This document shows, piece after piece, positions 3,777-57,361 of a DNA stretch of 57,361 nt; the stretch's first letter is position 1; every line of letters starts with the position of its first letter. Below the pieces are notes generated by a model. It was not told the DNA's origin. It did not search any database and was given only the letters and a program-made list of their open reading frames with translations. The DNA comes from an uncultured Clostridia bacterium (GTDB taxonomy: Bacteria > Bacillota > Clostridia > TANB77 > CAG-508): positions 1 through 57,361 of the forward strand of contig CANQCG010000005.1 of assembly GCA_947589645.1 (NCBI GenBank). The letters run 5' to 3'. The position numbers and the translations under genes are program-made.

Positions 3777-4190
3777 ATGGACGAAAATAACATTATAGTC
3801 TGTGAGAAATGCTATGAAGAAAATGAAAGCTCAAGAACTACTTGTAAGTATTGTGGTGCGAAATTATATAAAAACGATGTATCTAATAAAGAATATAAGA
3901 ATAGTAAAGATTTAGAAGTCAATGAAGAAGAACAGAGTGAAGATACTTGGATAGAAAATACTACAATAAAAAATAAAATTGCTAATAAATTTAAAATAGT
4001 AGCAAATATTTTAAAATTTATTGGATATGGAGGAGCATTTATATTTACAATTATATATATGTCAGCAGACGAAATAGGATTTGCAATATTAGGAGCAATA
4101 GTGATTGTTATCGCAACTTGGTTTTCTTGTCTATTTTGGGAAGCTATTTCAGAAGTTTTACAATTGCTTGAAGATATAAAAAATAAATAG
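3777..4190 (+). CDS. Zinc-ribbon membrane protein
   Basis: The 137-residue protein carries an N-terminal zinc ribbon: Cys-x2-Cys at CEKC and Cys-x2-Cys at CKYC, 14 residues apart. This is the zinc_ribbon_2 type often fused to membrane segments. An acidic linker (residues 45-62) follows, then two hydrophobic segments at about 80-97 and 100-124. AGGAGG lies 7 bp before the ATG. The topology suggests a cytosolic metal-binding head on the membrane. The partner is unknown. It is the last conventional gene of the island before the toxin-like module. Confidence 0.7.
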   Translation: MDENNIIVCEKCYEENESSRTTCKYCGAKLYKNDVSNKEYKNSKDLEVNEEEQSEDTWIENTTIKNKIANKFKIVANILKFIGYGGAFIFTIIYMSADEIGFAILGAIVIVIATWFSCLFWEAISEVLQLLEDIKNK

Positions 4191-4324
4191 ATTTTAAAAA
4201 TTAAAAAAAGAGATATAAAAAATGGTACTAATTAGATGAAGTGAATAAAGTAATTAATGAATAATTTGTCGAATTAGATATTTTGTGAATTTATGAACGG
4301 AATTATAGATTTTTTGAATGTATG

Positions 4325-6707: not shown

Positions 6708-7199
6708 GTGAGAGAGAAGCAATATCAAAGAGAAAAGGCAGTCGAATATGCAATCAAATGGGCGCATGGTAGAAATCCTAAATATTACAATTTTGATCCA
6801 GTTGGTGGAGATTGTACAAGTTTTATATCACAGTGCATATATGCAGGAAGCGGGGTTATGAATTATGACCTATATGGGTGGTATTATAAAAATGGAAATA
6901 ACAAATCGGCATCATGGAGTGGAGTTGAATATTTATATGATTTCTTAACTAAAAATAAGGGAGCAGGCCCTTATGGAGAAGAAGTAACCATAGATAAAAT
7001 ACAAAGAGGGGATATAGCACAATTAAGCTTTGATGGAAAAGTATTTGCACATTCTTTATTTATTATTGAAACTTCTCCAAATCATAATATAAGTCAAACT
7101 TTAATTGCAACACATACTCAGGATGCACTTAGAAGGAGCATAGACTCTTATAATTTTAATAAAATTAGGTTTATTCATATAACTAATGTTAGACTGTGA
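6708..7199 (+). CDS. Amidase-like protein (Amidase_6, putative cell-wall amidase domain)
   Basis: The 163-residue protein starts at GTG 6708 with AGGGGG 7 bp upstream. It is a single domain of the Amidase_6 type (papain-like fold). REKAVEYAIKWA and YYNFDPVGGDCTSFISQC contain the expected nucleophile Cys within GGDCTSF. The His is in FAHSLFII, within 'DGKVFAHSLFIIE'. In sporulating Firmicutes such domains are usually secreted or spore-associated hydrolases of peptide bonds in peptidoglycan. No signal peptide is present here, so a cytoplasmic, mother-cell or spore location is possible. Translation may be controlled by the hairpin around its ribosome-binding site. Confidence 0.8.
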   Translation: MREKQYQREKAVEYAIKWAHGRNPKYYNFDPVGGDCTSFISQCIYAGSGVMNYDLYGWYYKNGNNKSASWSGVEYLYDFLTKNKGAGPYGEEVTIDKIQRGDIAQLSFDGKVFAHSLFIIETSPNHNISQTLIATHTQDALRRSIDSYNFNKIRFIHITNVRL

Positions 7200-7257
7200 A
7201 ACATTATTTATATATTGGTCTCAGAAGGACCAAACGCGAGTAGAAGCAAGACATAGC

Positions 7258-7287
7258 AAAAGCCATTCTTAATAGAATGGCTTTTAA
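7258..7287. terminator. Bidirectional terminator between convergent genes
   Basis: AAAAGCCATTC pairs with GAATGGCTTTT, T-rich on both strands; placed between the stop codons of the amidase gene and the leftward gene. Confidence 0.85.
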
Positions 7288-7288
7288 T

Positions 7289-7627
7289 TTAATTATGGGA
7301 CTCGGCCCATCTTAGCATCTTTATACTTTTATATTTTTCTAATATTACATTGTATTTATCATATTCTTCCTCCCACAAGGCAGAAGGTATTTTGTCAAAA
7401 GCCTCGAAGATTCTTTCGGCCTCCATTAAGAAAATTACTTGTTGTTGAGCAGACAATTTATCAAATTTCTGTGAATAAGCATATAATCTATCTAAAACTT
7501 GGTTTGCTTCGATGAAGCTCCAAAAATCTTTTACATTCATTCCAAATAATTTAATTTGTAAAACGGCATATGCAATTAATGCGAATATAATAAATATTAA
7601 CAAATATATTACATATAGTAATACCAT
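7289..7627 (-). CDS. Small membrane-anchored protein of unknown function
   Basis: The 112-residue protein begins at ATG 7627 with GAGG 8 bp upstream; the in-frame GTG three codons earlier overlaps that site. A single N-terminal hydrophobic segment (about residues 1-26) is followed by an alpha-helical soluble domain. That domain has conserved-looking Trp residues (FWSFIEAN, ALWEEEYDKY, MLRWAESHN). I do not recognise a family. It is a monocistronic gene between convergent and divergent neighbours. The soluble part is most likely cytoplasmic or cell-wall facing; the sequence does not settle which. Confidence 0.6.
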   Translation of the reverse strand: MVLLYVIYLLIFIIFALIAYAVLQIKLFGMNVKDFWSFIEANQVLDRLYAYSQKFDKLSAQQQVIFLMEAERIFEAFDKIPSALWEEEYDKYNVILEKYKSIKMLRWAESHN

Positions 7628-8875: not shown

Positions 8876-9093
8876 ATATATCTTTTCTAAAATGAGGCCT
8901 TTTCTAGTCGTTTCACATTTAGATTAATATATTTCTTCTGAAAAAATGGCCTTTTCTAGTCCGATTCATTTTTTGGATTAATATATTTCTTTTGCAAAAA
9001 CACCCCTTTTCTACAAGCTAGCATTATAACTTTACATAAAAATAAAATGCTAGCTTGTAGAAAAGGCCTATTTTTGAAAAAGATATATATAAT
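8876..9093. repeat. Palindromic repeat element, locus A
   Basis: Two units of about 54 bp (AATATATTTCTTTTGC-like segment, then CCTTTTCTAGTC, then a T-rich tail) lead into a perfect 21-bp inverted repeat. Its arms are 9005-9025 and 9046-9066. The loop contains ACTTTACATAAAA. A half-unit in opposite orientation (GAAAAAGATATATA) closes it. This accounts for most of the 8796-9249 gap. Related loci lie at 40270, 47047 and 48740. Confidence 0.8.
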
Positions 9094-25300: not shown

Positions 25301-28300
25301 AATACAAATGCCAGAGCACAATCTGGAGAATTCTATTTTGATAATACAACAGCCCAAATAGAGTTTACGCCATCTTCACAATCAAATTGGACAAAAGGAA
25401 CAACAGTAACAATAAAAGCAACAGATGCAAACGCAGGTTTAGAGCAAAATGCAACAGTTAAATATCAATGGGTAAAATCAGGAGAATCACCAGTAGATGC
25501 AAATTGGACAACAGCAAAATCAACAAACCCAGCAGGAGCAACATCTACAACATGGATAGTACAACAAACAGAATCAAATGCATATTCAGGAACATATAAT
25601 TTATATGTAAAAGGCGGAGTAGTAAAAGATAATGTACCAGAAACAAGCGGAAACTTCAGTGCAGAAGTAAAATCTGGAGAGTTTAACTTTGATGCTACAA
25701 AACCAGTAATAACATTATCACCAAATGACCAAAAAGATTATTATACAATAAAAGGAAAAGATGTAACAGTAAATATAAAAGATGCCCATGCAGGACTATC
25801 AGCAAATGTAGCAATAAAATATCAATGGGTATTAAAAGGTTCAGAAGTATCAAGTTCAGCATGGAAAGAAATTAAAGGAAGTAATGGTGCAGGGGATAAA
25901 TCTACAACAAGAACAATACCAGCATCAGAATCAAATAACTTTACCGGTATATATTATTTATATATACAAGCAGGATGTGTAAGAGATAATATAACAAATC
26001 CTGTAACAGAAAACGTAAATATTCAAGTACAATCAGGAGAATTCCATTTTGATAATATAAAACCTACTATACAATTTGACCCAAATACACAAACATCATA
26101 TACAAGAAGAAGAACAGCAGTAACAGTAACAGTATCAGATGCAAATGCAGGATTAGCAGAAAATGTTGCAATACAATATCAATGGGCAAAATCAAGTGCA
26201 GATTTAAAAGAAGCAGGATGGTTAATAGCAAAAGGATCAAATGCAGCAGCTGCACCTTCTACAAAAATACTAGTACCATCAAGTGATGAAGCAAACTTAA
26301 CAGGACAATATTACTTATTTATAAAAGAAGGCTGTGTAAGAGATAACGTACATGATAGTACAACTCAAAACTCAAATGTACAAACTAATTCATCAGTATT
26401 TAATTTTGATAATACAAAGCCAGTAGTTTCAAAATTTGAGCCAAATAGCCAAACAGAATCATGGAGTAGAGGTACAGAGGTAAAAGTAACAGCAACAGAT
26501 GCAGATGCAGGTTTTGTAGTAAATGCAAAAATGCAATATCAATGGGTATTAAAAGGACAAAGTCCAAATAATAACAATTGGAAAGAATTAACATCAAATA
26601 ATGTAGCAGCAGCTAAAACTGCAACATGGACAGTTCCAAAATCAGAATCAAGTAATCTAAGCGGAACATATATATTGTATATAAGAGCAGACATAATCAA
26701 AGATAATGTAACAGATACCACCAAAAATGGTAATATTGTAAAAGCATCAGGAGAATTCCAGTTTGATAACGAGAAGCCAGTAATCAAGCTAACACCAGAT
26801 ACAACAGGAACAAATTGGGTAAAAGATGGAAGCAAGGTAACAGTAACAGCAACGGATGATTATGCTGGAATGATGGCAGGTGCACAAGTACAATATCAAT
26901 GGGTAGTAAGTACAGGAACACCAAGTGCAACCGCATGGACTACATTAGCAGCAAACAATGAAGCAGGAACAAATAGTGTAACATGGATAGTACCAGCAGA
27001 AAAATCAAAAGCGTTTAATGGCTTATACAAGTTATATATAAAAGCAGGAGTAACCAAAGATAATATTACAGATACAACAAAGAATGAAAACAACGAAGTA
27101 GTATCAAAAATATTCCAATTTGATAATGAAAAACCAGAAATAACATTTAACATGACTACATTAACAACTTGGAAAAAAGGTGGACAAGAGGTAACAGTAA
27201 CAGCAAAGGATACTTATGCTGGACTAATAGCAGGTGCACAAATTGAGTATCAATGGGTACTAGAAAATGCTACGCCAGCAGAAAGCTCATGGACTCCATT
27301 AACAGCAAAAAATAATGCAGGAGAACATTCTACAACATGGACAGTTCCAGCATCAGCATCAAGCACATTAACAGGTAAATATAAGTTATATATAAGAGCT
27401 GGAATAACAAAAGACAATGTAGTAAACACAGACAAAAATACAAACGTTGAGACTCATACAGATTTATTCTTCTTTGATAATACAAAGCCAGTAGTTTCAA
27501 AATTTGAACCACAAAGTCAAACAACATCATGGAGTAGAGGAACACAAGTTGTTGTAACAGCAACAGATCCAAATGCAGGTTTAGTAGCAAAAGCACAAAT
27601 ACAATATCAATGGGTATTAAGTACAGGAACACCAAGTGCAAGCGGATGGACTACATTAACAGCAAATAATGAAGCAGGAGCAACAAGTGTAAGCTGGACA
27701 GTAGAAAAATCAGCATCAAGCACTTTAAATGGAAAATATAAATTATATATAAAAGAAGGAATAATACAAGATAATGTAAGTGATGCTACTAAGAACGTAA
27801 ACGAACAAAAAGTATCAGGAGAGTTCTATTTTGATAACGAAAAGCCAGTCATCGCTTTATCACCAACTACAACAGGAAACGACTGGGTAAAAGATGGAAG
27901 AGCAGTAACAGTTACAGCAACAGATAATTATGCCGGAATGATAGCAAGTGCACAAGTACAGTATCAATGGGTATTAGGCGAAGGAGCACCAGCAGAAGGT
28001 TCATGGAACACACTAACAGCAAATAATGAAGCAGGAAAAAGTCCTGTAACATGGACAGTGCCAGCAGAAGCATCAAGTAAATTAAATGGCTTATACAAAT
28101 TATATATAAAAGCAGGAGAAACCAAAGATAATATTACAGATGCAACAAAGAATGTAAATAATCAAGTAGTATCTCAAGTATTTAAATTTGATAACGAAAG
28201 ACCAGCAATAACATTTAGTATGGATACATTAACAACATGGAAAAAGGATGGACAGCAAATAATAGTAACAGCAAAAGATAATTATGCTGGACTAATAGCA

Positions 28301-31300
28301 AGTGCACAAATTGAGTATCAATGGGTATTAGATGGACAAAGTCCAAACAATGATAATTGGGCAGGTTTAACATCAAATAACACAGCAGGGCAGTCAACTA
28401 CAACGTGGACAGTTCCAGCATCAGCATCAAGCAAATTAACAGGTAAATATAGATTATATATAAGAGCTGGAATAACAAAAGACAATGTAGTAAACACAGA
28501 CAAAAATACAAACCTTGAGACTCATACAGATTTATTCTTCTTTGATAATACAAAACCAGTAGTTTCAACATTTGAACCAGATAGCCAAACAGAATCATGG
28601 AGCAGAGGAACTCAGGTAGTAGTAACAGCAAAAGATCCAAATGCAGGTTTTGTAGTAAATGCAAAAATGCAATATCAATGGGTAGCAAGTAATGGAACAC
28701 CAGACCCAAATGCATGGACTCCATTAATAGCAGACAATGAAGCAGGAGCAAATACTGTAAGTTGGACAGTAGAAAAATCAGCATCAAGCAAGCTAAACGG
28801 AAAGTATAAATTGTATATAAAAGATGGAGTTATACAAGATAATGTAAGTGACACTACTAAGAACGTAAACGAACAAAAAGTATCAGGAGAATTCTATTTT
28901 GATAATGAAAAACCAGCTATTTCTTTATCACCAACTACAACAGGAGACGAGTGGGTAAAAGCTGGAAGGGTAGTAACAGTAACAGCAACAGATGATTATG
29001 CTGGAATGATAGTGGGTGCACAAATTGAGTATCAATGGGTATTAAAAGATGGATCACCAGCAGAGAAATCATGGATTCCATTAACAGCAACAAATAAAGC
29101 AGGAGCAAATAGTGTAACATGGACAGTACCAGTAGAAGCATCAAATGAATTAAATGGCTTATACAAATTATATATAAAAGAAGGAGTAACCCAAGATAAT
29201 ATTACAGATGAACCAAAGAATGTAAACAATCAAGTAGTATCAGACATATTTAAATTTGATAATGAAAGGCCAGAAATAACATTTGAACCAAACTCACAAC
29301 CAACATGGGTAAAATCAGAAGCAGTAACAGTAAAAGCAACAGATGGTTATGCGGGACTAATAGAAAATGCGCAAGCACAATATCAATGGGTACTAGAAAA
29401 CAAAGAGCCAGATGACAATAATTGGAAAGATTTAGCATCAAATAATAAAGCAGGAGATAAATCTACAACATGGCTTGTTCCAGCAGATGCATCAAGTACA
29501 CTAACAGGTATATATAGGCTATATATAAGAGCTGGAATAACAAAAGACAATGTAGTAAATGATGTAGTAAAAGATGAAAAGAATACAAACGTTGAAACAT
29601 ATACAGATTTATTCTACTTTGATAATACGAACCCAGTAGTAGGAACGTTACAAATGCATTTAGATACCATAGATGGCGAAACATATAATTCTGGAACATG
29701 GACGAAACATAGTGTATTTATACATAAGGTAGATGGAGACGATGCACATAGTGGACATAGAGAGACAAGATACACTGTTTTAAAAGACCAAGCACCATAT
29801 GTAACCGACGAAACAGGAGATATAACATTAGAACAAACAGGTGTATATGACATAACAGTTACAACAGAAGATAATTTGTATAATACATCAACAAGTACTT
29901 ATCAAGTAAAAATAGACAAAGTTGACCCAATAGCCGGAACCATGGATATGAGAGTTGATAATGCACAAGGAGAAGAGTATCCAAATGGCAAATGGATAAA
30001 TAGAAGTGTATATATAAACAAAGTAGATGGTAAAGATGATCATTCAGGACATTTACTAACAAATTACACAGTAACGAAAGATGGAAAGCCATTTGTAAAT
30101 GACAAAACAACATTTACTATACTAGAAGAAGATGGAGTATATGAAATAGTAGTAACAACCGAGGATAAATCTGGTATAGAATATGATGAGGTAGGACATA
30201 AAACATCAAATAGTTATACAGTAAGAATAGATAAAACACCACCAGAATCAATAATAACAGGAGAAGCAACAGGTGTAACAGATGGTTTAGTAAGACATTT
30301 TGATGCAAATAACAATATGGGAAACGGACATTCAAAAGATACAAAAACATGGAAAGATTTATCATTAAGCAATAAAGATGCAAATCTTAATGGCGGAACA
30401 TTTGAAGATGCATACTTAAACTTAAATGGAACAAGTGACTGGGTAAACTTAGGAGAAGTAAGTTTAACAACAGCGGCAACCATAGAGGCACAAATTAAGA
30501 TAAATGAGATACAATCAGGGGAAAAAACAATATTGTGCAACTATGAAGCAGGTGGAATGGGAATAGCCTTAAGGGATGGAAAACCTGAGACTTCAGTATA
30601 TGTTAATGGAATCTATCAGAGAGTTATGTTAGATGAAGTATTAGATACAGATAGAATATACAATATATCAGGAACATATGATGGAAAGGCATTAAATTTA
30701 TATATAGATGGTGTATTACATGCAACTAAGACTATATCTGGTACAATAGGACAGCCAGTAAGCAACACAGTAATGGCAATAGGAGCAAACCCAAGCGGTA
30801 GCACTGCAGATGGTAATTTTGCAAATATCAAGGTATATTCAGCAAGAATATACAATAAAGCACTATCACAAACAGAAATAAAGAAAAACTTAAATGCAGA
30901 CAGAATAAACCCAGAAAAATTAGTAGCAAACGATGGCACAGTAACACTATCATTTATCTTCACAGAAGATGTATATAATTTTGATGCAGAAGATATAACA
31001 ATAACAAATGGAACAAAAGGAAAATTCACTAGAATATCCGACTCAGAATACACATTAGAAGTAACCGGCATAGTAGCAGAGCAAGACTTATTAGTAGAAG
31101 TTGCAAAAGATAGTTATGAAGATAGAGCCGGAAACCATGGCAATGCACCAACAACAACAAGAAAGAGAGACACAATAAACCCAACAGTAACAATTACTTC
31201 AAATGCACCAAAAGACCCAACAAATGTACCAACACTAACATATACATTTGAATTTAGTGAACCAACAGTTGGCTTTACTACAGATGACATAACAGTAACT

Positions 31301-32578: not shown

Positions 32579-35500
32579 CGAAGTAACCATAAACTTAAAT
32601 GGCGGAACAGTAAATGGCAGCGTATTTGGAGGAGCCAACGGAGGCTCAGGAACAGTAGGCACAGCAACCATAAACATAGAAGAAGGTACAACAGTATCTG
32701 GAAACGTATTTGGTGGAGCAAATGGAGACACAGGAGCAGTAGACACAGCAACCATAAACATAGAAGAAGGTACAACAGTATCTGGAAACGTATATGGCGG
32801 AGCGAACGAAGGCTCAGGCTCAGTAGGAGAAGCAACCATAAACCTAAACGGCGGAGTAGTAGCTGGCTGGATATTAGGAGGATCAGCTTACGGAACAGGA
32901 ACAGTAGGAACAACTAACATAAACCTAAAAGGCGGAACAGTATCTGGATATGTATTTGGAGGAGCGTGTGAAGGCTCAGGAACAGTAGAAACAGTAATTA
33001 TAAATCAAGAGGGTACAACTATAGGTGAGAAAGTATTTGCAGGAGGCTACAATGGCGCCGGAATTGTAGGCACAGCAACTATAAATCTAAAAAAAGGAAA
33101 AATAAATGAAATTTATGGAGGAGCCAAGCATCATACTGAAACAGTGAAAACTTCAACCATAAACTTAGAAGGCGGTGAAGTAGATTTTGTGTTTGGAGGC
33201 GGAGAAGGATGCTCTGGAACAGTAGAAAATGTAAATATAATAGTAGATGGAGTCACACATTGTGGTCACATAATATGTGGACCTTATTTCTCACCAGGAT
33301 TAGTAAAACAAGTAGATTTACTGTTAAAAGCTCGTAATAATTTGACGATTGATCAAATATTTGGGGGAGGATGGAATTCATCTGTAGGAACAGTAAATAT
33401 AGAAATGAATGGAAATTTAACTGTTAATGCTATGATTGCAGGATGTAGAGAAAACTCTGGAGATGTAGAGGAAGCCAATATAAATTTAATATCAGGAACA
33501 ATATTATCAGTAGCTGGTGGAGGTGATTCTGGAAATGTAAAAAAAGTAAATATACAATCAAATGGAGCTTCAATTGGAGAAATATGTGGCGGTCGTGGAG
33601 GAACGGTAGAAGAAGCAACCATCAACTTAAACAGTGGAATAATATCTGGCAATATATATGGCGGAGCAGACGGTGGTTCAGGAACAGTAGAAACAGCAAA
33701 CATAAACCTAAACGGCGGAACAGTAACTGGAAGCATATATGGAGGAGCAAATAGAGACACAGGAACAGTAGAAACAGCAAACATAAACCTAAAAGGTGCA
33801 ACAGTAAATGGTAATATATATGGAGGATCAAGTGCGGGCTCAGGCTCAGTAGGAACATTAACCATAAAATCAGACGCTGGAGAAGTAAAAGGAGACATAT
33901 ATGGAGGAGCAAACGCAGGCTCAGGTACAGTACAAACAGCAAGCATAACCGTAAATGGAGGAACAGTATCTGGAAGCATATACGGAGGAGCAAACGCAAG
34001 CTCAGGTACAGTACAAACTGCAAGCATAACCGTAAATGGTGGAACAGTATCTGGAAGCGTATATGGTGGAGGTATAAGATCTACCATAGGAACTAAAGAC
34101 ACAGCAGGAAAGACTACATTAAATATTGTAGGAGGAACTATAGAAGGAAGCGTATTTGGAGGCTCTAAAAATGGCACAGTATATGGAAATGTAGCAATAA
34201 ATATAGGAAAAGGAGCAACCGAAATTGATGATTCAGTAGCAAATAGCTTAGAAATCAAAGGAGATATATATGGTGGAGGAAACCTAGACACAGCAACTAA
34301 TTATACAGACAAATTAGTAACAGGAGCATCTACCATAAATATAGACGGAAAAGATTATACAAACTTTAAAGTAAATGGCAACATATTTGGTTCAGGCAGA
34401 TACAGTACAGTAAATAGTTCAACTATTACAATCAAAAATGTAGGTGCAAACAAAGCTCCACATCTAATACAATCAGTACAAAGAACAGACCTATTAACCA
34501 TAGATAAATCAAATGTAGAAATAATAGGTGCATCAGACTCAACGAACTTAAATGTTGAGATAGCCTTCACACTAAATAGAATAGAAGACTTAAAAATAAA
34601 GAATGGAACAACATTACATGTAAGAAGAGGCTTTAACCAAGTAGAACAATTTGATTCTTTAGTAGATATAGACGGAAAAGAAACCAAGGCCGAAGTAAAA
34701 ATAGAGAATAATAATGCAATAGCTTCACAAAATGTAATAAACAGAGTATACATGTACGAAGGCGTAAACTTAATAATAGCAAAAGAACAATATGTACAAA
34801 ACAAAGAGCTAACATTATATGGAAAAGTAAGTGGAATGACCTTCTTAGGAATGTATGCAAGAGATAGAGAAAATGACGAATTAAAATATGATGTGTATGA
34901 CCCAGACAAACCAAGCAATGGAAACTTATTCAAACTAGGAGGCTATGTAGAAGGACTATATGATGAGAATAAAGCAATAAAAGTAGATGGCTTCTATACA
35001 AACGAATTAGAAAAACTAGATGATCCAAACTCAAATATAGTTCAAAAATATGTAGATGTCATAACAAATCAACCAATAAGTCAAGATTGGATAATAGGAA
35101 TGACAACATACTTCCACCGAGAAACATTAATAGCAAAGAGAAGCAAAGATAAAATACATGCTGAAGTACCACTAGCCCAATTAAATGAAGAAGGAGTAGG
35201 CTATAACGTAAACTTATTCTCAATAAACAGCTTAGAAAGTGGAATAAACTTAATAGATAAGTCACAAATACCAACAATGGCAGAAACTTCAGAAAAGGCA
35301 AATACAACCTTTGCGCTAACAATGAGAAACGGAAAATCAGGCTGGAAGACACAAGGAGAAACAAACTTCTACTCATCAGAAGAAACACCAATATTAGGAA
35401 CAAGACAATACTTAACAGATGATAGCGGAAATGTACCAACAATAGACCTATACTTATATAATTCAATAAATATAAGCGAAACAAGTGATGCAGGTTTAGT

Positions 35501-40195: not shown

Positions 40196-40269
40196 TTGTA
40201 CCATAAACTTTTATTAATGTATATTGGAATAAATTCAAAATTATGATTAAATCTTAAAAAACATTTGAA

Positions 40270-40740
40270 ATTTTATATTTCTTTTGTAAAATATATGCCT
40301 TTCTAGTCCGGTTCATTTTTTATTTTTATATATCTTTTTCAAAATGAGGCCTTTTCTAGTCCGGTTCATTTTTGAATCTTATATTTCTTTTCCAAAATAC
40401 ATGCTTTTCTAGACCGGTTCATTTTTGAATTGTAAATAATATTAGTAGCAATTTTAAGAAAATTTAATATATCTTTCTTTGATTTAACCCTTTTCTCATC
40501 TATAAATCTTTATTTTTTTATGTAAAGTTAATGATTTCTAGACGAGAAAAGGGCATAATTTCAAAAACAAATATAAAAATTCTAGTGTGAAACGACTAGA
40601 AAAGCATGTATTTTGGAAGAGAAATATAAAACTTAAGTGTGAAACGATTAGAAAAGCATGTTTTTTGCAAAAGATATATATAATCTAAAAAAATGAATCG
40701 GACTAGAAAAGCATGTTTTTTCAAAAAGAAATATATTATC
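40270..40740. repeat. Palindromic repeat element, locus B (largest copy)
   Basis: Three rightward units (CTAGTCCGG or CTAGACCGG cores at about 40303, 40357 and 40411) lie left of a central hairpin. Its arms are 40488-40508 and 40533-40553, 19 of 21 paired, and its loop carries TTTTATGTAAAG. Three leftward units follow (CTAGAAAAGC type, ending at about 40603, 40656 and 40712). The whole locus is thus a 470-bp inverted arrangement. The central motif is the reverse complement of that in loci A, C and D. Confidence 0.8.
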
Positions 40741-47245: not shown

Positions 47246-47350
47246 AAATTTTATTAAGAGTGGACGAGAGAATCGGCTTTATGACTCCACAGCAACCTGT
47301 GAAAGCAAGGTGCTAAAACCGACAAAGCAAAGCTTTGAATAATAAATAAA
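47246..47350 (+). promoter_or_regulatory. SAM-I (S-box) riboswitch aptamer controlling metK
   Basis: The conserved S-box order is present: AAGAGTGGA, then GCTTTATGACTCCAC, then AGCAACCTGTGAAAGCAAGG and TGCTAAAACC. P1 can pair TTTATTA with TAATAAA and P2 pairs GTGGA with TCCAC. The aptamer binds S-adenosylmethionine. Since metK makes SAM, high SAM would end transcription at the hairpin 47361-47388. This region and the hairpins explain most of the 543-bp gap before metK. Confidence 0.92.
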
Positions 47351-48739: not shown

Positions 48740-48992
48740 TTTATAAGGCTTTTCTAGACCGATTCATTTTTTAAAATTTTATATATTTTTTCCAAAAAAC
48801 ATGCTTTTCTAGACCGATTCATTTTTTGAAATTTTATATATCTTTTTCAAAAAACATGCTTTTCTAGACCGATTCATTTTTTAAATTAATATATTTCCTC
48901 CCAAAAACATGGCTTTTCTACAAGCTAGCATTATAAATTTACATAAAAATAAAATGCTAGCTTGTAGAAAAGGGTGTATTTTAGAAAAGAAA
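48740..48992. repeat. Palindromic repeat element, locus D
   Basis: Three rightward units of about 54 bp (CTTTTCTAGACCGATTCATT cores at 48749, 48803 and 48858) precede a hairpin. Its arms are 48913-48932 and 48953-48972, 20 bp perfect, with a loop holding ATTTACATAAAA. The stem is almost identical to that of locus A, 40 kb away. Confidence 0.8.
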
Positions 48993-57077: not shown

Positions 57078-57119
57078 TAATACAATATTAATTGAAATTT
57101 GTATTAATAATAGTATAAT
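57078..57119 (+). promoter_or_regulatory. Promoter with inverted repeat ahead of the leader peptide
   Basis: TTGAAA at 57092-57097, 16-bp spacer, TATAAT at 57114-57119. TTAATACA and TGTATTAA flank the -35 box and form an 8-bp inverted repeat that could be an operator. Confidence 0.6.
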
Positions 57120-57206
57120 AAAATATAGGAATATGTAGAAATTTGACGAAAATACTATAAATTACATAGTAGTATATAATGCATATAACAAAAGGAGACA
57201 AAGCAA

Positions 57207-57272
57207 ATGATAAACGCTATAACCCTTGGCGCTGTACACACACACACACACACACACACAGATAACCGTTAA
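57207..57272 (+). CDS. His/Thr-rich leader peptide
   Basis: A 21-codon ORF follows AAGGAG at good spacing. It reads MINAITLGA then VHTHTHTHTDNR: four His and four Thr codons alternate in a CA dinucleotide tract, immediately before a terminator hairpin. This is the arrangement of amino-acid attenuator leaders (compare enteric his and thr leaders): ribosome stalling at scarce His- or Thr-tRNA would let transcription proceed. The controlled genes lie beyond the window. A chance CA microsatellite is the main alternative. Confidence 0.6.
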   Translation: MINAITLGAVHTHTHTHTDNR

Positions 57273-57299
57273 TAATAAAATAAAAAACCAAAAACACAT

Positions 57300-57361
57300 A
57301 AGGCTATTTAGCAATATGTTTTTTAGCAATTCTAAAAACATACTGCTAAGTAGTCTTTTTT
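57300..57361 (+). terminator. Candidate attenuator terminator after the leader peptide
   Basis: A long hairpin pairs AGGCTATTTAGCAATATG with CATACTGCTAAGTAGTCT (with G-U pairs and an extended T/A stem), followed by TTTTTT at the window edge. Confidence 0.75.

Follow-up and report, generated by a model that had tools for sequence, protein, structure and literature searches.

What is controlled by a short leader of alternating histidine and threonine codons that stands before a strong terminator at the very end of a contig of an uncultured Clostridia bacterium? The window (the whole stretch of DNA analyzed, 57,361 nucleotides) is the entire contig C5, one of the 49 contigs of a 1.33-Mb genome, and its end falls in the T run of that terminator, so the gene behind this copy is unreadable and the downstream genes are known from paralogs and relatives. 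The first-pass annotation had read the element as an attenuator sensing His or Thr. The locus comprises the following features:

57092..57119, + strand: sigma-70-like promoter TTGAAA-16-TATAAT, recognized by sequence pattern; kept in the paralogous modules and before the operon of a SipW-like signal peptidase (contig C35)
57191..57197, + strand: Shine-Dalgarno sequence AAAGGAG; kept in all full copies
57207..57272, + strand: leader ORF MINAITLGAVHTHTHTHTDNR, 21 codons, ATG at 57207 and stop codon ending at 57272; as assembled (n=12), the predicted OFF phase
57237..57260, + strand: (CA)12 tract; 6 to 14 units across paralogs
57261..57361, + strand: predicted ON-phase (n+1) continuation frame ...TQITVNNKIKNQKHIRLFSNMFFSNSKNILLSSLF; open to the contig end in the window copy
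57300..57357, + strand: intrinsic terminator hairpin, identified by RNA folding, then a T run to 57361, the contig end

The initiated 21-codon leader and the strong terminator behind it, both claimed by the first-pass annotation, are present. The minimum free energy of the hairpin is -25.0 kcal/mol, compared with a mean of -7.7 in 200 shuffles (z -7.9). A rule-based terminator scan gave no match at 57300-57357, presumably because its rules allow only loops of 3-8 nt and an uninterrupted stem; folding shows the hairpin clearly. Elsewhere in the window are: (i) a SAM riboswitch (RF00162, 72.9 bits; 47248-47348), (ii) long tandem repeats with periods of 357, 84 and 81 bp (26587-29392 and 32585-34071), which at the DNA level resemble repeat domains of large surface proteins, and (iii) dispersed repeats of 52-55 bp with CTTTTCTAG(T/A)CCG(A/G)TTCATT on both strands (8896-9000, 40264-40735 and 48748-48920).

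The locus belongs to a module of ~315 bp, present in about nine copies in the genome (88-92% identity). The copies often sit at contig ends, and these positions suggest that the module repeat broke the assembly. In this genome, CA tracts of at least 8 units are confined to the module context, apart from two that share its CTGTA(CA)n sequence on contig C16. In-silico addition of CA units gave three outcomes: (i) HR and a stop 5 nt past the tract, (ii) DNR and a stop 12 nt past it, and (iii) a frame that stays open for 94 nt and crosses the hairpin; in complete paralogs the stop of this ON-phase continuation lies in the 3' arm. All three frames occur among the assembled paralogs, with four HR-stop copies, four DNR-stop copies (including the window) and one run-through copy (L011, contig C45, n=13), although single tract lengths may be misassembled in a metagenome genome with near-identical paralogs and contigs breaking in the repeat. 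The two tracts of contig C16 (L019, about 4150-4320 and 7160-7600) lie in frame near the 5' ends of two genes, one serine-acetyltransferase-like (hexapeptide acetyltransferase) and the other acyltransferase-like, the latter label coming from a reading of the translation only; these are probably cases of conventional frame-switching of surface polysaccharide genes.

It is very probable, on the strength of the whole analysis, that the window element is a phase-variable, ribosome-controlled attenuator whose frame is set by the CA count. From the module, its repeat-number variation, frame logic, conservation and downstream genes, all read from the sequence, we infer the following course of events in cells, from use of the promoter and translation of the leader to termination, antitermination and switching. 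Transcription would start at about 57126 and the leader ORF would be translated, while the terminator would halt transcription unless a ribosome occupied the hairpin. Slippage in the (CA)n tract at replication would shift the frame 3' of the tract. In two of the three frames the ribosome would stop a few codons past the tract and some 27-35 nt short of the hairpin, which would then form and leave the gene off; in the third, translation into the hairpin would block its folding and the surface-protein gene would be transcribed. The window copy as assembled (n=12) would be off, and n=13 would be on.

Relatives were sampled as 60 contexts taken from related genomes, to which a pattern scan of GTDB species genomes added 111 stretches; deduplication yielded 167 distinct CA tracts (own genome and relatives) in 78 genomes. 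The comparison of leaders, which the first-pass annotation had proposed, revealed a strongly conserved small ORF, with an in-frame Shine-Dalgarno sequence and start codon for 164 of the 167 tracts. A terminator-like hairpin (dG of -15 kcal/mol or better) follows 111 of these 164, vs. 16 of 281 stretches drawn at random from these loci and 2 of 164 shuffled sequences. The arrangement at the locus is far beyond chance, given the repetition of the module, the confinement of long CA tracts to its context and the start sites of the 164 tracts. There were also 21 tracts (of 164) with no clear fit to either the leader-plus-hairpin or the fused-gene class.

The frame logic was examined in those 118 leaders whose hairpin reaches -12 kcal/mol or better; they come from related uncultured Clostridia (50 genomes). 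In 111 of them the hairpin is entered by exactly one of the three frames, compared with a mean of 35 (maximum 50) for shuffled spacers and a mean of 78.6 (maximum 92) for a harder null, in which the spacer was swapped for real DNA of the same locus, coding DNA included. This excess over real DNA indicates that the spacer acts like DNA coding in exactly one frame. When one leader per genome was counted, which corrects for kinship only partly, the rule held for 46.5 of 50 vs. 15.5 for shuffles. The closed frames stop at a median of 35 nt upstream of the hairpin. Five leaders have no hairpin-entering frame, and four of these stop at most 10 nt from the hairpin. As assembled, 96 alleles are predicted to be OFF and 22 ON, and ON is rarer than one third (p = 0.0006, with related copies being non-independent).

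Flanks and hairpins differ between lineages and genomes, and the one-frame rule persists. Within genomes the ON frame is kept despite changing length, as the distance from tract to ON stop changes mostly by multiples of three (101/104/107/110/116 nt in G042, 65/77 in CANQTU and 126/135 in G012); among pairs that differ in length, counted across all genomes, 33 share the frame and 11 do not. Substitutions between tract and hairpin show no third-codon-position bias (72/137/85), which means that the openness of the frame is kept and the peptide sequence is not. A function of the leader peptide was rejected on the same ground, and the peptide seems unimportant.

Phage contigs from IMG/VR (L255, L259, L261, L263, L253, L264, L258 and L260) carry the same leader start (SLEAVHTHT-type) and a CA tract. 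Two of them, L253 and L264, have identical flanks (300+300 nt) and 16 vs. 15 CA units, and the near-identical L255, L259 and L261 have 14, 12 and 11, which indicates that the tract varies in nature; these copies represent a variant design lacking a terminator, and the chromosomal variation was seen between paralogs and not at one leader. Unit numbers differ both among paralogs and among near-identical phage contigs, and the fast mutation of the tract anticipated by the first-pass annotation is supported. No terminator was found in the fetched flank of the phage copies, and in one frame the stop adjoins the start codon of the following gene; for these two reasons they look like a translational-coupling version of the design, and a phage gene may be phase-switched by such coupling. 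One phage neighbour gene (L251) matches PHROG tail proteins, the other phage neighbours giving no matches. In four MAG contigs (L103, L163, L184 and L225), short proteins are preceded at 32-39 nt by CA-tract leaders that lack a strong terminator. The proteins of L163, L184 and L225 have matches among the PHROG tail or tail-fibre families, and that of L103 has none; these are probably prophage genes with the coupling design.

Such copies bear on the possibility that the window element is a translational switch without termination, in which the ON frame would bring ribosomes to the downstream start (coupling) or shield the mRNA, and the hairpin would merely end the previous unit or block Rho. 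A related design does exist in L103, L163, L225 and the phage contigs, where the ON-frame stop overlaps the next start or lies a few nt from it and there is no terminator. In the window family, however, some 50-80 nt separate the ON stop from the next start downstream, the ON stop falls inside the hairpin itself (5' arm, loop or 3' arm) in 99 of the 111 leaders, and each hairpin is followed by a T run, all of which argue against such a switch. We therefore regard a switch of this kind as improbable at the window locus.

The reading as a classical amino-acid attenuator, in which a shortage of charged tRNA would stall ribosomes at His or Thr codons, an antiterminator would form and his or thr genes would be turned on, can draw on the terminator and on the 4 His and 4 Thr codons that the leader ORF has in its tract. 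These codons are present because CACACA encodes His and Thr in any frame. The frame after the tract varies between copies, which is at odds with amino-acid sensing, and the tract acts via its length modulo 3, i.e. the reading frame, and not via a varying number of sensing codons as had been proposed. A ribosome stalled in the tract, 40 nt upstream of the hairpin, would have no antiterminator to favour: a check for a competing fold found none, and the mean probability of upstream pairing of the hairpin 5' arm was 0.30, exceeding 0.5 in only 7 of the 118 leaders. Also against this reading, no Rfam leader or T-box scored above gathering, the hairpin giving only low-scoring microRNA matches, all below the gathering score. 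The his or thr genes expected downstream are absent behind paralogs and relatives, where the genes encode surface proteins (none was found next to module copies among the paralogs with visible genes), and the gene of the window copy lies beyond the contig. The first-pass annotation had named unrelated downstream genes and a non-conserved small ORF as the signs of its own failure: the former were found behind the paralogs, and with them the sensing of His or Thr fails, while the small ORF proved conserved, and ribosome-mediated control as such appears upheld by frame logic and architecture. Amino-acid attenuation is thus highly unlikely. No more credible is a spreading repeat without a regulatory role, with the 315-bp module as a promoter block that has been duplicated and the CA tract as a neutral microsatellite, which is compatible with the about 90% identity of copies within the genome, but not with differing flanks and hairpins under an unchanged one-frame rule in other genomes, with spacer indels that preserve the frame in most families, or with the confinement of CA tracts this long to the leader context in the genome.

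A phase-variable attenuator, the preferred reading, would here govern the production of surface proteins. Complete module copies precede two types of secreted proteins, MEKVKKTVIKFSVGRL...TYSRYV and MKNVIKKL...GTYARYV, for which nothing significant was found in Pfam or NCBIfam. The AlphaFold model of the TYARYV-type protein has a mean pLDDT of 61, and its structural matches are weak and scattered; that of the TYSRYV-type protein (pLDDT 30) was not used, and identification of the two types by fold was abandoned. A homolog of the TYARYV type on contig C35 adjoins the SipW-like signal peptidase, whose operon has the same promoter region as the module, without the CA leader. Only this neighbouring gene points to a possible relationship of the TYARYV-type protein to TasA. 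In L010, L013, L012 and L009, dissimilar N-terminal halves (of the TYSRYV and TYARYV types) are joined to one common C-terminal domain (AINADKYGDEV.GYEC...WRLFYQN), which suggests domain shuffling among the predicted phase-variable surface proteins.

The downstream genes of relatives encode prepilin-like and large surface proteins. A prepilin-like start (e.g. KGITLIALVITIIVLLILAGVSIATL) was present in 50 of the 109 downstream ORFs found, and the Pfam N-methylation motif matched weakly in 9 of 61 downstream proteins scanned. The usual glutamate at position 5 is absent from the prepilin-like segment, and for this reason the name type IV pilin was considered and withheld. Other downstream proteins contain Ig-like, leucine-rich-repeat or Cna B domains (Pfam scan), which are typical for exported surface proteins. 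In two prepilin-like genes of relatives (L081 and L083), CTGTA(CA)n lies in frame at the gene start. In L150 and L205 (contigs CALXAV), the ON frame crosses the terminator hairpin into an ORF of ~750 codons, leader and surface protein thus being fused across the terminator.

Within the order, 77 of 287 genomes and 28 of 45 genera contain the motif CTGTA(CA)8, with a maximum of 29 matches per genome (G137), and its reversed control pattern had no matches in the genomes of the order. In a phylum sample of 299 genomes it occurred in the window's own genome and in none of the 298 others. Named motif records are almost all from metagenome genomes of uncultured Clostridia, many with gut-sample names, and one is from a Candidatus Merdicola. 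Since two genomes of one genus (G042 and G052) retain the architecture without the CTGTA start, motif counts are lower bounds. It appears rather likely that this order of uncultured gut Clostridia uses a homologous CTGTA(CA)n leader-terminator module as a plug-in, with as many as tens of loci in a genome, giving each cell a random on/off mix of pilin-like and other surface proteins, and that phage contigs use the tract before tail-region genes. If so, the CA count, readable from sequence alone, would predict which surface genes are on, cell-to-cell variation in organisms that have never been grown would become testable with existing metagenome reads, and more than 100 natural attenuators would form a comparative set for studying where the stop codon lies with respect to the terminator.

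Among known systems, the his, thr and trp leaders share with the window a leader peptide and translation coupled to a terminator; unlike them, the window family has no sensing, antiterminator or biosynthetic genes, and its switch is a DNA change. Classical phase-variable genes (contingency loci with short 5' repeats) have the tract in the gene start, as do the contig C16 genes, L081 and L083, and the frame switches the protein itself, whereas in the window the tract lies in a separate leader and would act via the terminator. The mechanism proposed here is assigned by architecture, as the same parts and spacing are found in Pil1 of Streptococcus gallolyticus, in which, as described by Danne and colleagues, the number of GCAGA repeats sets the length of the leader peptide (PMC3894217). 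Transcription there is permitted when the peptide ends within the hairpin or adjacent to it, and mutants of the terminator and the start codon behaved as predicted (PMC3894217). In a stop-codon mutant the cells formed one population, with expression slightly higher than the low level, and isolates whose leader stop lay at least 28 nt upstream of the terminator retained a mostly low-expressing profile (PMC3894217). Sequence and folding reveal the Pil1-type features at the window locus, namely a short ORF led by a ribosome-binding site and containing a non-triplet repeat, a premature terminator and a frame-dependent stop. Common to Pil1 (and Pil3) and the window family are a repeat tract in a short translated leader, a premature stem-loop terminator, a frame set by repeat number, an ON state (here predicted) with a longer peptide ending in the hairpin, and control of surface structures (pili there, and here, by prediction, surface-type proteins). 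The repeat unit is a GCAGA pentamer in Pil1 and a CA dinucleotide here, neither being a multiple of three, and the high frames are two of three in Pil1 of strain UCN34 (21 and 23 repeats) and, by prediction, one of three here. The downstream proteins differ from those of Pil1, and the likeness is drawn from architecture. A literature search, without bioRxiv and most subscription journals, found no published CA-tract leader attenuators in Clostridia. Two loci (Pil1 and Pil3) are reported in UCN34, whereas the motif here occurs across an order and reaches 29 copies in a genome; a mechanism so far described at two pilus loci in a single streptococcus would thus be employed genome-wide, at many loci and with CA as the repeat unit.
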